A stretch of DNA of 64,000 nt from the NCBI RefSeq assembly GCF_014127285.1, contig NZ_CP059901.1:434001-498000 (forward strand), read 5' to 3'. Below the pieces are notes generated by a model. That model was not told the DNA's origin. It saw nothing but the letters and a program-made list of their open reading frames with translations, and made no database searches. Made by a program: the position numbers and the translations under genes. Within the stretch, counting starts at the first letter, position 1; every line of letters begins with the position of its first letter. Origin of the DNA: Mumia sp. ZJ1417 (GTDB taxonomy: Bacteria; Actinomycetota; Actinomycetes; Propionibacteriales; Nocardioidaceae). Positions 20,899 to 55,359 of the stretch are shown here, in pieces.

Positions 20899-20902
20899 GA
20901 CC

Positions 20903-20985
20903 CGGTGGTTGAGCCTGTCGAAACCGAGGCCCGCTGGTTGAGCCTGTCGAAACCGAGGCCCGGTGGTTGAGCCTGTCGAAACCTC
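20903..20985. repeat. three tandem copies of GGTTGAGCCTGTCGAAACC, 29-bp period
   Basis: Copies at 20907-20925, 20936-20954 and 20965-20983 are identical, joined by near-identical 10-bp linkers. The last copy ends at the base before the stop triplet of the convergent alcohol dehydrogenase gene. The same 19-mer occurs in the opposite orientation at 44924-45158, and a related form (GGTCGAGCCTGTCGAGACC) at 22077 and 29249-29345. Confidence 0.95.
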
Positions 20986-22024: not shown

Positions 22025-22076
22025 CCGTCCACGCTAAGTCGGCACCCCCACCTCCGCCGGTCGAGCCCCCTCCGCT

Positions 22077-22095
22077 GGTCGAGCCTGTCGAGACC
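22077..22095. repeat. single copy of the GGTCGAGCCTGTCGAGACC dispersed repeat
   Basis: One 19-bp copy lies in the gap between the divergent alcohol dehydrogenase and patatin genes, with a truncated copy (GGTCGAGCC) at 22059-22067. It matches the copy at 29327-29345 exactly. Confidence 0.9.
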
Positions 22096-29154: not shown

Positions 29155-29248
29155 GGACGGACTCCTCGGTGCGGCGCGGGTGTGGCGTCGGGCAGTGGCA
29201 AGACTGTGACACGGCTCACAGGGCGAGGCAAGGGTGGTCCGGCGGAGG

Positions 29249-29347
29249 GGTCTCGACAGGCTCGACCGGCGGAGGGGGCTCGACCGGCGGAGGGGTCTCG
29301 ACAGGCTCGACCGGCGGAGGTCCGGCGGTCGAGCCTGTCGAGACCCC
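29249..29347. repeat. dispersed-repeat cluster with a 21-bp perfect hairpin
   Basis: Two direct copies of GGTCTCGACAGGCTCGACC (29249-29267, 29294-29312) are followed by one inverted copy (29327-29345). The second and third copies, extended by two G/C pairs, form a perfect 21-bp stem (29292-29312 with 29327-29347) around a 14-nt loop. A partial copy lies near 29277. The cluster fills the gap before a short GTG open frame. Confidence 0.92.
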
Positions 29348-44464: not shown

Positions 44465-44570
44465 GCCCCGCCCCGTTCGCCACGGTGCGGACGGTTCATC
44501 GTACGGGCAGCATCGTCCGGGTGCCAAAGCCGGGGACGGGGTGTGGGGGCACTCCGGCACACTGGGGCTC

Positions 44571-44921
44571 GTGATCGACATGTCGCCGGACCGCTTCGCC
44601 GAGCTCGTCGAGCAGGCCTTCGACGCGCTGCCTGAGGACCTGACCGGGCTGCTCGAGAACGTCGTGCTCCTCATCGAGGACGACGCCCCCGACGACGACC
44701 CGACGCTGCTCGGCCTCTACGACGGCATCCCTGTCACCGAGCGGACCTCCGCGTACGGAGGGGTGCTGCCGGACCGGATCACGATCTACCGCAACCCGAC
44801 GCTCGCGATCTGCGACGTCGAAGAGGACGTGATCGAAGAGGTCGGGATCACCGTCGCCCACGAGATCGCGCACTACTTCGGCATCGACGACGACCGGCTG
44901 CACGAGCTGGGGTACGCATGA
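44571..44921 (+). CDS. zincin-like metallopeptidase family protein
   Basis: The 116-residue protein carries a zinc-peptidase motif HEIAHYFGIDDDRLHELGY (HExxHxxG) in its C-terminal helix, as in the small DUF1025/zincin-1 family of actinobacteria. The N-terminal half (SPDRFAELVEQAFDALPEDL) and PDRITIYRNP match the family. Cytoplasmic, substrate unknown. Start may be GTG 44571 or ATG 44580. Its stop overlaps the ATG of the pirin gene as ATGA, implying translational coupling. Confidence 0.88.
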   Translation: MIDMSPDRFAELVEQAFDALPEDLTGLLENVVLLIEDDAPDDDPTLLGLYDGIPVTERTSAYGGVLPDRITIYRNPTLAICDVEEDVIEEVGITVAHEIAHYFGIDDDRLHELGYA

Positions 44922-45874
44922 GGGGTTTCGACAGGCTCAACCAGCGGCTGGGTTTCGACAGGCTCAACCAGCGGCTGGGTTTCGACAGGCTCAACCAGCG
45001 GCTGGGTTTCGACAGGCTCAACCAGCGGCTGGGTTTCGACAGGCTCAACCGGCGGCTGGGTTTCGACAGGCTCAACCGGCGGCTGGGTTTCGACAGGCTC
45101 AACCAGCGGCTGGGTTTCGACAGGCTCAACCAGCGGCTGGGTTTCGACAGGCTCAACCAGCGGCCCGCTCGTGTGATCCGTGCCGACGAGCGGAACGAGA
45201 CACGGCGCGACGGCATCACGACGCGGCACTCGTTCTCGTACGGGGACCACTACGACCCCGACAACGTCGCGTTCGGTCCGCTCCGCGCGGTGAACGAGGA
45301 GCGCCTCGACCCGGGTGCCGGGTATGCCAGCCACCAGCACAGCGACGTCGAGATCGTCACCTGGGTGCTCGACGGGGCGCTCGCGCACGAGGACTCAACG
45401 GGCACACGTGGCGTGATCCGGCCCAGTGAGGTGCAGCACGTCAGCGCCCGCACCGCTGTCGAGCACACGGAACGCAACGCGTCGGAGACCGAGCCGCTGC
45501 GCTTCCTGCAGATGATGGTCGCGCCCTCCGCCGACGAGCTCGCGGATCCCGACCCCGGCGCGCCCACGTACCGGCAGTGGGACCTCCAGGGTGCGCGCGG
45601 CTACCTCCTCGACGTGCTTCGGCTGCGCGACGGCGTCACGCTCCACGCCGCGTTGCTCGACGTGGGCGACGTGGTCGCGCTCCCCGAGGACGGCCTGGTC
45701 TACCTGCAGGTCACGCGGGGTTCTGTCGACGTGGCCGGGACCGTGCTCGACGCGGGTGACGCAGTCCGCGCGTCCAGCGCGGGGCCGTTGGGGGTGAAGG
45801 CGCTCGCGTCGTCCGAGATACTGGCGTGGCACTTCGCTGAGCCTGCACCGGCACCGAACCAGGAGCACCCCTGA
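44918..45874 (+). CDS. pirin family protein with repeat-derived N-terminal extension
   Basis: The open frame of 318 codons has two parts. Codons 3-82 are nine copies of a 27-bp repeat, read as GFDRLNQRL units. From about residue 84 ([20 protein letters not shown]) it is a pirin-like double cupin, with metal His residues in [23 protein letters not shown] and partner motifs [19 protein letters not shown]. Bacterial pirins can act as quercetin dioxygenases or redox cofactors; role here unknown. The ATGA overlap with the previous gene suggests the ancestral start is 44918. GTG 45172, after the array, is the alternative start. Confidence 0.85.
44924..45158. repeat. nine tandem copies of GGTTTCGACAGGCTCAACC, 27-bp period
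   Basis: Identical 19-mers begin at 44924, 44951, 44978, 45005, 45032, 45059, 45086, 45113 and 45140, with 8-bp linkers (AGCGGCTG, or CGGCGGCTG-like variants after copies 5 and 6). The period is a multiple of three, so the pirin frame stays open. It is the reverse complement of the array at 20907-20983. Confidence 0.97.
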
Positions 45875-53987: not shown

Positions 53988-54038
53988 CGGGTCACTCTCT
54001 GCGCGCCGCGGGTCACTGTCTTGCGCTCGCGGGTCACT
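53988..54038 (+). repeat. three CGGGTCACT motifs at exact 21-bp spacing, before the DUF2812 gene
   Basis: CGGGTCACT occurs at 53988, 54009 and 54030. Only the 9-bp core is conserved; the 12-bp linkers differ. The last copy ends 23 bp before the ATG at 54062. Confidence 0.85.
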
Positions 54039-54061: not shown

Positions 54062-54385
54062 ATGAGTGGCGAGACCCGTACGTACTGGTTCGTGCCGTTT
54101 CGTGTTCGGGGCACGGAGACCCTCGAGGCGTGGTTCGAGGAGATGGCGCGTCAAGGGTGGGTCGCTGACCGCTTGGGCTTCCTCAGCGCCGTCCGGATGG
54201 AGCTGAGGTGGCGCAAGGGCGGGCGGAACTACCGCTATGTGATCGACCCGCGGCGCTTCCCTGACGCGCCCGAGGACTCGCTGATCGCCTCGGCAGGATG
54301 GGAGGACGTCGGCACGCTGAACGGCAAGGACGTCTGGCGCGCCCCGTACGAGGGTGCGCGGCCCGACCTGTTCGTCGACGAGTGA
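54062..54385 (+). CDS. DUF2812-like small protein
   Basis: The 107-residue protein contains FRVRGTETLEAWFEEMARQGWVADRLG and KGGRNYRYVIDPRRFPD, a layout seen in DUF2812 proteins, which often accompany PadR regulators. No PadR gene is present here. No signal peptide or membrane helix. ATG 54062 is chosen because homology begins there; no ribosome-binding site is clear. The gene is flanked on both sides by 21-bp-period repeats in opposite orientation, the downstream array covering its stop codon. Confidence 0.75.
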   Translation: MSGETRTYWFVPFRVRGTETLEAWFEEMARQGWVADRLGFLSAVRMELRWRKGGRNYRYVIDPRRFPDAPEDSLIASAGWEDVGTLNGKDVWRAPYEGARPDLFVDE

Positions 54386-54453
54386 CCCGGGGCGGCCAGA
54401 GAGTGACCCGGGGCGGCCAGAGAGTGACCCGGGGCGGGCGGAGAGTGACCCCG
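54381..54453 (-). repeat. four AGTGACCCG motifs at exact 21-bp spacing, after the DUF2812 gene
   Basis: AGTGACCCG (reverse complement of the upstream CGGGTCACT) starts at 54381, 54402, 54423 and 54444; the last reads AGTGACCCCG. Linkers are more alike than upstream (GGGCGGCCAGAG). The first copy overlaps the DUF2812 stop codon. Confidence 0.9.
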
Positions 54454-54458
54454 GGGCG

Positions 54459-55247
54459 CTAGGAGAGGTCGACGATGACGGGGGCGTGGTCGGACGCGCC
54501 CTTGCCCTTGCGCTCCTCGCGGTCGATCGACGCACCGGTCACCCGGCCGGCGAGCGCGGGCGAGCACAGCGCGAAGTCGATCCGCATGCCCTCGCGGCGC
54601 GGGAAGCGCAGCTGTGTGTAGTCCCAGTAGGTGTACGTCCCGGGGCCGGGCGTGTGCGGCCGGGCCACGTCGGCGTAACCGGTGTCCTCGAACGCGGCGA
54701 ACGCCTCGCGCTCGAGCTTGGAGACGTGGGTCTTGCCCTCGAACTTCGCCATGTCCCAGACGTCCTCGTCGTGGGGCGCGATGTTCCAGTCGCCCATCAG
54801 TGCGATCTGCGCCTGCGGGTCGTTCGCCAGCCAGCCGGCGGCGTCCTCGCGCAGCTGGCGCAGCCACTGGAGCTTGTAGACGTAGTGCGGGTCCTCGAGC
54901 GTGCGCCCGTTGGGCACGTAGAGCGACCAGATGCGTACGCCTCCGCACACCGCGGAGATCGCGCGCGCCTCGGCGGCTGCTGGGTCGCCCCAGGTCGGCA
55001 TGTCGGCGAACCCGACCTGGACGTCCTCGAGGCCGACGCGCGAGATGATCGCGACGCCGTTCCACTGTGAGAGGCCGTGGTGCGCGACCTCGTAGCCCGT
55101 ACCGATCAGCGGCAGCTCGGGGAACTGGTCGTCACGGCACTTCGTCTCCTGGATCGCGAGCACGTCGACGTCACTGCGCTCGAGCCACGCGGCGACGCGG
55201 TCGATGCGCGAACGGATGGAGTTGACGTTCCAGGTGGCGATCCGCAT
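54459..55247 (-). CDS. xth: exodeoxyribonuclease III
   Basis: The 262-residue enzyme is an ExoIII/APE-type Mg-dependent AP endonuclease and 3' exonuclease in base-excision repair. Motifs: MRIATWNVNSIRSR, LAIQETKCRDDQFP with the metal Glu, WSLYVPNGR, LMGDWNIAPHDEDVWD with the catalytic Asp-Asn, RIDFALCSPALAG and the ending GASDHAPVIVDL with the catalytic His. Length is standard. It is divergent from the decarboxylase gene with 112 bp between starts. Confidence 0.96.
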   Translation of the reverse strand: MRIATWNVNSIRSRIDRVAAWLERSDVDVLAIQETKCRDDQFPELPLIGTGYEVAHHGLSQWNGVAIISRVGLEDVQVGFADMPTWGDPAAAEARAISAVCGGVRIWSLYVPNGRTLEDPHYVYKLQWLRQLREDAAGWLANDPQAQIALMGDWNIAPHDEDVWDMAKFEGKTHVSKLEREAFAAFEDTGYADVARPHTPGPGTYTYWDYTQLRFPRREGMRIDFALCSPALAGRVTGASIDREERKGKGASDHAPVIVDLS

Positions 55248-55359
55248 GAGTACGACCGTACCGGGAGGGTCGGACGGCTCCTCAGGTCGGCCGATCAGCC
55301 ACCGGCCGATGCGTATGATCTGCCGTAAAGCCACTAAGGGACGGGAGGATCTGCGGCAT

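Follow-up and report, generated by a model that had tools for sequence, protein, structure and literature searches.

A dispersed short repeat family in Mumia and its tandem array at the 5' end of a pirin gene

The array and the start of the pirin gene

A tandem repeat array lies at the junction between a metallopeptidase gene and a pirin gene in Mumia sp. ZJ1417, which raises the question of where the array came from and whether it is translated as the N-terminus of the pirin. We analyzed the locus within a DNA stretch of 64,000 nucleotides (the window). The zincin-like metallopeptidase gene (longest ORF, 44541-44921, plus strand) was identified by the Pfam profile Zincin_1 (PF06262, E 3.6e-30 for 44574-44918). 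Its stop codon, TGA 44919-44921, overlaps with ATG 44918 as ATGA, and the frame opened by this ATG runs without a stop to 45874. The product of this pirin-family gene (44918-45874, plus strand) matches Pfam Pirin (PF02678, residues 97-199, E 2.6e-24) and PF17954 (E 4.4e-8), indicating that the pirin cupin domains are present. A type II dehydroquinase gene follows downstream. The array begins directly 3' of ATGA. Tandem Repeats Finder placed it at 44923-45164 on the plus strand with a period of 27, 9.0 copies, 99% matches, and a score of 470, and nine exact copies of the 19-mer GGTTTCGACAGGCTCAACC lie within 44924-45158. With up to two mismatches allowed, the 19-mer has 16 matches in the window, compared with a mean and a maximum of 0 in 100 dinucleotide-preserving shuffles. 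The preliminary description reported nine identical units after ATGA. Nine 27-bp units do follow the junction directly, but they are not all identical, as units 5 and 6 are ACCGGCGG and the other seven are ACCAGCGG (CAG -> CGG, Q -> R). The last unit continues into CCC where the others have CT.

Each unit reads GFDRLNQRL in the pirin frame. The earlier count of 80 added codons was right in that the frame is open from 44918, but the extension upstream of the alternative start GTG has 85 codons, approximately 81 of them in the array. This GTG is at 45173-45175 (plus strand) rather than at 45172 as first reported, because 45172 is out of frame. The open frame by itself is no evidence of coding because the repeat unit is stop-free in five of the six frames. 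The array also gives rise to two long antisense ORFs (44848-45388, minus strand) of 123 and 171 aa with WLSLSKPSR and LVEPVETQP repeats, both of which are likely spurious. In an AlphaFold2 model built with 22 sequences, the pirin core is mostly above 90 pLDDT and residues 1-70 form broken short helices at 55-68. The array is thus predicted to confer no confident extra fold on the pirin.

We compared the locus with the other five Mumia genomes (G001-G005), among which G001 is M. xiangluensis and G004 is M. quercus. In all six genomes, the metallopeptidase stop overlaps as NTGA with the codon at which the pirin frame begins, leaving no intergenic space that an array could have converted into coding sequence, contrary to the first interpretation. 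The linker from NTGA to the codon before the conserved motif [VI]R.D[ED]R is 255 nt in the source genome and 81, 51, 51, 54, and 75 nt in the other five. All of these are multiples of three, and for five distinct lengths the chance of this is about 0.012, assuming four independent changes. The linker sequence shows no conservation among the Mumia genomes. Scored with a codon model trained on the 64-kb window alone, the five array-free linkers obtain +1.0 in the NTGA frame, which is about neutral, as against poor values of -24.7 and -25.8 in the two remaining frames. Upstream of the junction start, 16S-tail pairing amounts to -6.0 to -7.3 kcal/mol in all six genomes, with -7.3 kcal/mol for 44918, the most likely pirin start codon, at which translation may be coupled to the upstream stop. 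Among the 30 pirin loci compared, 8 from outside the genus adjoin the metallopeptidase gene. In 7 of these 8, a start with a 4-nt overlap would be out of phase, whereas an ATG that overlaps by 8 nt is in phase, as judged by eye, so a start at the overlap is general in these loci, with a variable linker. Both -4 and -8 are given as enriched gene overlaps in PMC12548453.

Translation from GTG 45173 would leave the array as a misannotated, untranslated spacer of ~250 nt, like the N-terminal REPs that others deem extragenic, and section 15 of PMC3733652 cautions about such misannotation. The codon directly before the conserved core is GTG in four of the six Mumia genomes and TTG in one, its upstream 16S-tail pairing is good in G002 (-9.4 kcal/mol) and G003 (-6.9 kcal/mol), and PDB 1tq5 (YhhW) aligns to the pirin product only from residue 88 onward. 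However, G005 has GTC, a non-start codon, at this place, and pairing upstream of the source genome's own GTG is almost absent (-1.7 kcal/mol). The divisibility of all linker lengths by three and the bad coding scores of both alternative frames in the array-free linkers also oppose a start at 45173, which we regard as improbable. Start 44918 is favoured but not proven, because the junction data support it yet GTG or TTG precedes the core in five of six genomes. Judged from the sequence comparisons, the array is most likely translated as the pirin N-terminus from 44918.

A check of whether homologues lack the extension had been suggested, and the array is indeed absent from the other five Mumia genomes, which have an in-frame linker of 51-81 nt instead. 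The array is therefore lineage-specific within the Mumia genomes compared, and it occupies an unconserved pirin linker that was already translated. The repeat was looked for and not found at the pirin 5' end in G002, G003, G004, and G005. G001 has, at exactly this place, a single decayed copy of the repeat in a longer form, GGTTTCGACGCGCTGCGCTCGCTCAAC. The nearest relative of the source genome by DNA is G004 (mostly 83-89%). Thus, the source genome and G001 have distinct forms of one family in the same codons, and yet neither form is present in G004, the closest relative.

The repeat family in Mumia and beyond

The source genome contains 64 exact copies of the 19-mer; the counts for the other Mumia genomes are 3, 1, 0, 0, and 0. 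A looser pattern has 95 matches in the source genome and 89 in G001, some places being counted twice, and among the 41 of 89 G001 places listed, all are the longer form. The core GGTTTCGACAGGCTCAACC often continues with AGCGG. As the preliminary description stated, the same 19-mer recurs in the window with a 29-bp period. It forms an intergenic three-copy array on the minus strand beside stop codons (20901-20983, the three copies within 20907-20983), which was found by Tandem Repeats Finder, 19-mer search, and comparison. In G001 and G005, another, longer repeat common to the two lies at this convergent junction, and G002 and G004 have almost no DNA between the stops. The 19-mer search and the comparison also located a related form, GGTCTCGACAGGCTCGACC, in three copies and two orientations at 29239-29345, which is absent from G002 and G004. 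One more copy of a related form (22077-22095, minus strand) lies with partial units at 22046-22095, where G004 has a different longer form. Elsewhere in the source genome, a region of nearly 1 kb (L056:1963-2924, G000:C1:3338662-3339623) contains three clusters in both orientations with periods of mostly 31-36 bp, comprising 11 exact 19-mers plus additional copies that carry one mismatch.

The 64 exact copies make up 31 clusters. By an automatic pass combined with reading of the translations and the window-trained codon model, we typed 5 clusters as internal and in frame, 6 as N-terminal, 3 as C-terminal, 5 as stop-supplying, and 12 as intergenic. This typing took the exact copies, leaving out mismatch-only places (e.g., 106455 and 178955), and scored all three L056 clusters as intergenic although two of them are ambiguous. 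Twenty-six of the 31 clusters are outside gene interiors, and 19 touch coding sequence. In the stop-supplying clusters, the stop of the upstream gene is given by GGTTGA.

In predicted translation, Pfam or NCBIfam matches span all five internal sites. The repeat is at residues 83-89 of a carboxyltransferase (Carboxyl_trans, 48-526), 444-449 of a RecB-like helicase (UvrD-helicase, 182-484), 125-131 of a DUF6351 protein (59-593), and 460-466 of NarG (TIGR01580, above cut-off, 109-955). In an Mfd-like protein, the repeat is at residues 408-424, and the TIGR00580 match (199-906) is below cut-off and truncated at the locus end. The N-terminal hosts are the pirin, HutI, CarA, NuoC, an MCE protein, and an acVLRF1 protein; five of these six sites are at a 4-nt NTGA junction, and the sixth opens at a GTG on the repeat edge. 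The in-frame repeat is thus not peculiar to the pirin, as several other genes are predicted to carry it in frame.

The orthologous sites suggest that the repeat was gained in more than one way. In the RecB-like loop, the source genome has the short form, G003 has GGTCTCGACAGGCTCGACC units, and G001 and G005 have the longer form, all within ~15 bp, and the loop is empty in G002 and G004. This permissive loop (L096-L102) therefore holds three repeat forms in four species at two points ~15 bp apart. The repeats of CarA and the carboxyltransferase are present in the source genome only, all five Mumia orthologues of each being without them. In the carboxyltransferase, the net gain is 12 nt versus four relatives and none versus G003, and the repeat replaced a loop. 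At the nuoC 5' end (L114/L115), the repeat segment is exactly as long as the G004 linker, to which it is unrelated, so that the repeat looks overwritten onto the linker rather than inserted. Simple insertion does not account for all sites because of this equality in nuoC and the replaced loop in the carboxyltransferase. The alignments of RecB and CarA would fit gain by plain insertion, and those of the carboxyltransferase and NuoC, and perhaps the pirin, would fit loop or linker replacement. For the internal sites, this comparison covered the RecB-like protein and the carboxyltransferase.

Beyond Mumia, 5 of 197 Nocardioidaceae genomes contain exact 19-mers in close tandem pairs, and 2 of 149 genomes of the phylum sample contain the exact 20-mer, the source genome being included in both counts. 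The regions taken from five other genomes contain 16 clusters, one of them at a contig edge. Among the 15 typed, 7 are in frame in long reading frames, 2 are stop-supplying, and 6 are intergenic or unclear. The in-frame hosts are MnmA (G152; a dimer with period 24), an Lhr-type helicase, and the N-terminal regions of a DUF4194 protein and GrpE (G225). Three further in-frame clusters are in one long G076 frame, in which Pfam and NCBIfam name no domain. A plasmid of Arthrobacter sp. (NZ_CP012477.1; L149:1289-2317) carries a VE(P/L)VETP array from the related form in WP_192841599.1, with a period of 24, 9.3 copies, and 81% matches. Pfam names no domain in WP_192841599.1, so its status as a gene rests on annotation.

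Regularities of the sites and the origin of the array

Three regularities of the repeat sites were inspected, and their 0-4 nt window, frame count, and period test were all chosen after the sites had been seen. In the source genome, 9 of 22 outer 5' ends of the repeat are preceded by a TGA at a distance of 0-4 nt (expected 1.13, P 7e-7); in G001, the same holds for 6 of 31 ends of the longer form (expected 1.46, P 0.003). Identical 14-mers were removed before counting, as were ends that had a further repeat up to 60 nt upstream. One of the nine TGA in the source genome (L053) is gene-internal, not a stop codon. The G001 count draws on 29 regions covering 41 of the 89 matches, and from these regions the TGA count alone was used. 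The VSTGSTS frame is used by 7 of the 11 internal and N-terminal sites (P ~0.01 over five open frames); GFDRLNQR, the reading found in the pirin, is less common.

The third regularity is the period. All six coding arrays have a period divisible by three (27, 30, 24, and 30 in the source genome, 24 in G152, and 36 in G076), compared with 4 or 5 of 13 arrays outside genes (Fisher P 0.008 or 0.017). In the source genome alone, the proportions are 4 of 4 for coding and 2 or 3 of 10 for non-coding arrays (P 0.015 or 0.035). The two values arise from counting the third cluster of L056, which has spacings of 34 and 36, either way; one spacing was taken per mixed array, and the test excluded an inverted pair (L036) and a 37-bp array at a contig edge (G115). 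These proportions support the earlier proposal that the 27-bp period was kept for the reading frame.

We consider it likely that the array is one copy of a dispersed family that came to lie in the translated linker of the pirin and grew there in tandem by multiples of three, giving a pirin made from 44918 with a dispensable extension of ~81 residues. A short repeat family would have become abundant in the Mumia lineage of the source genome, often settling near stop codons and in protein stretches tolerant of added residues. One copy may have landed after ATGAGG, within the already translated and weakly constrained N-terminal linker of the pirin, and it may then have expanded by tandem duplication into nine near-identical units. 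The only internal variant is common to the adjacent units 5 and 6, as tandem duplication predicts. Only growth by multiples of three would have survived because the pirin frame must be kept. On this reading, synthesis of the pirin would begin at ATG 44918, with coupling to the stop of the metallopeptidase gene. The repeat itself is most likely selfish or neutral and filtered by selection, so that it remains beside stops, in linkers and loops, and in stop-free frames, and grows by whole codons if translated. The filtering of repeat growth by frame selection should be directly testable because the intergenic arrays provide built-in controls.

The nine-unit array may also be thought of as an assembly artefact or a miscounted copy number, since near-identical tandem units are generally prone to assembly error. 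Opposing this, the source genome (4.19 Mb) is a single contig with a completeness of 99.75, the total length of the array keeps the frame, two of the units carry a variant, and smaller arrays are present in other genes and other genera. We therefore judge an artefact very unlikely. Slightly less unlikely, though still quite improbable in our view, is that the repeat is kept for a nucleic-acid function, such as a terminator, an mRNA end, or a protein-binding site, and that its translation is incidental. Twelve of the 31 clusters are intergenic, the stop of the convergent gene is 0-1 nt from the repeat at W20, L043, and L049, and orthologous intergenic sites in other species hold other repeat forms. 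The whole array also folds somewhat better than shuffles as single-stranded DNA (z -1.85, with 8 of 200 shuffles as good). However, stretches of the arrays fold as RNA no better than shuffles (z -0.58, -0.58, and +0.58), the short form is almost missing from close relatives, and 19 of the 31 clusters touch coding sequence.

Two units together gave a z of -0.58 as RNA, and for a single unit 199 of 200 shuffles fold at least as well, indicating a poor palindrome. A hairpin or terminator role is unsupported by the RNA folding. A RAYT/REP origin was rejected, as a profile search of the source genome with PF01797 (Y1_Tnp) gave no match, while the control matched in 5 of 14 genomes. In the whole window, Rfam found three tRNAs and had no match at the repeats. 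No exact 24-mer was found in viral contigs. Phages gave no blastn or tblastn match, and plasmids gave no tblastn match to the antisense reading of the array; the low-complexity filter was on in both searches, so these absences are weak.

Likeness to known repeat systems

Protein-coding dispersed repeats are a known phenomenon, and this particular sequence family is new to the literature searched. The 19-mer, a 20-base complement, and the 14-base cores occur in no paper of the open-access literature searched, by which measure the family is undescribed. The closest systems in action are the intragenic REPs and the Rickettsia palindromic elements (RPE) and, at gene junctions, the MIRUs, although the Mumia repeat lacks defining features of each. 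It is best read as a REP-like or RPE-like dispersed element that often lies just after TGA and is kept where in-frame peptides are tolerated.

The GTAG/CGTC intragenic REPs described in PMC3733652 are likewise short, dispersed, and near gene 3' ends, with termini that often supply stops; some lie wholly and in frame within ORFs, REP clusters encode 43-82 residues, and many of the hosts are DNA synthesis and repair genes. According to section 15 of that paper, two Xanthomonas species have different REPs at about the same recB site, a case that the Mumia RecB-like loop resembles. With 64 exact 19-mers and 26 of 31 clusters outside gene interiors, the Mumia repeat agrees with REPs as multicopy, dispersed sequences of 20-40 bp that are mostly outside gene interiors. 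It differs in the terminal tags, since GTAG occurs within 6 nt of the ends on either strand in 2 of 64 units and CGTC in 1 of 64 (2 of 43 and 1 of 43 in the longer form of G001). Unlike REPs, it has no stable palindromic stem, and the source genome gave no match to the Y1 (RAYT) domain. Its actinobacterial host is another difference, as the word 'actinobacteria', searched alone, has 0 occurrences in the main text of PMC3733652.

RPEs, as presented in PMC10969869, are found in frame in unrelated housekeeping genes, and the Mumia repeat is in frame within unrelated protein genes at its five internal sites, in predicted translation. RPEs are ~150 bp long (PMC10969869), and PMC3733652 equates RPE-4 and RPE-6 with REP-sized repeats; the Mumia unit, in contrast, is 24-36 bp, weakly palindromic, and often tandem, and one copy adds 7-8 residues. 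The NTGA overlaps found at five of the six N-terminal sites are reminiscent of MIRUs, and the other sites lie elsewhere. MIRUs form tandem arrays and vary in copy number among strains. As described in PMC12548453, these actinobacterial repeats insert at start codons with NTGA (-4) spacing and contain an ORF of their own that is coupled to the following gene, whereas the Mumia repeat is fused in frame to the downstream protein and occurs in gene interiors too. The palindromic amphipathic repeats called PARCEL (PMC2996958) are also translated tandem modules in microbial proteins. Their modules have 25 residues, and 'intergenic' has 0 occurrences in the text of PMC2996958, unlike the Mumia repeat with its dispersed intergenic parent.

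Coding dispersed repeats are on record from Rickettsia and a number of REP-rich bacteria, and these comparisons extend them to high-GC actinomycetes, where the genes with an in-frame repeat include those of the RecB-like and Mfd-like proteins, NarG, CarA, NuoC, MnmA, Lhr, and GrpE. Annotators should note that a run of VEPVET, VSTGSTS, or GFDRLNQR in an actinobacterial protein can stem from repeat DNA and need not be a domain. A broader and rather doubtful extension, offered tentatively, is that Actinomycetes carry undescribed, very short, coding-tolerant mobile repeats with GGTYTCGA...CTCRACC cores. These might spread without a known transposase, target TGA at coupled junctions and tolerant loops, and give way to species-specific forms at the same sites in each lineage. 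They might in this way supply new linkers to core proteins, with copy number acting as a frame-keeping dial of length, for example in the pirin.

Two minor observations concern another part of the window. The region 54447-55267 (~820 bp) has an inverted match to G001 and a collinear match to G002, G003, G004, and G005. Repeats of 21 bp with GAGTGACCC/GGGTCACTC cores are located at 53988-54038 and 54380-54458 in opposite orientations.
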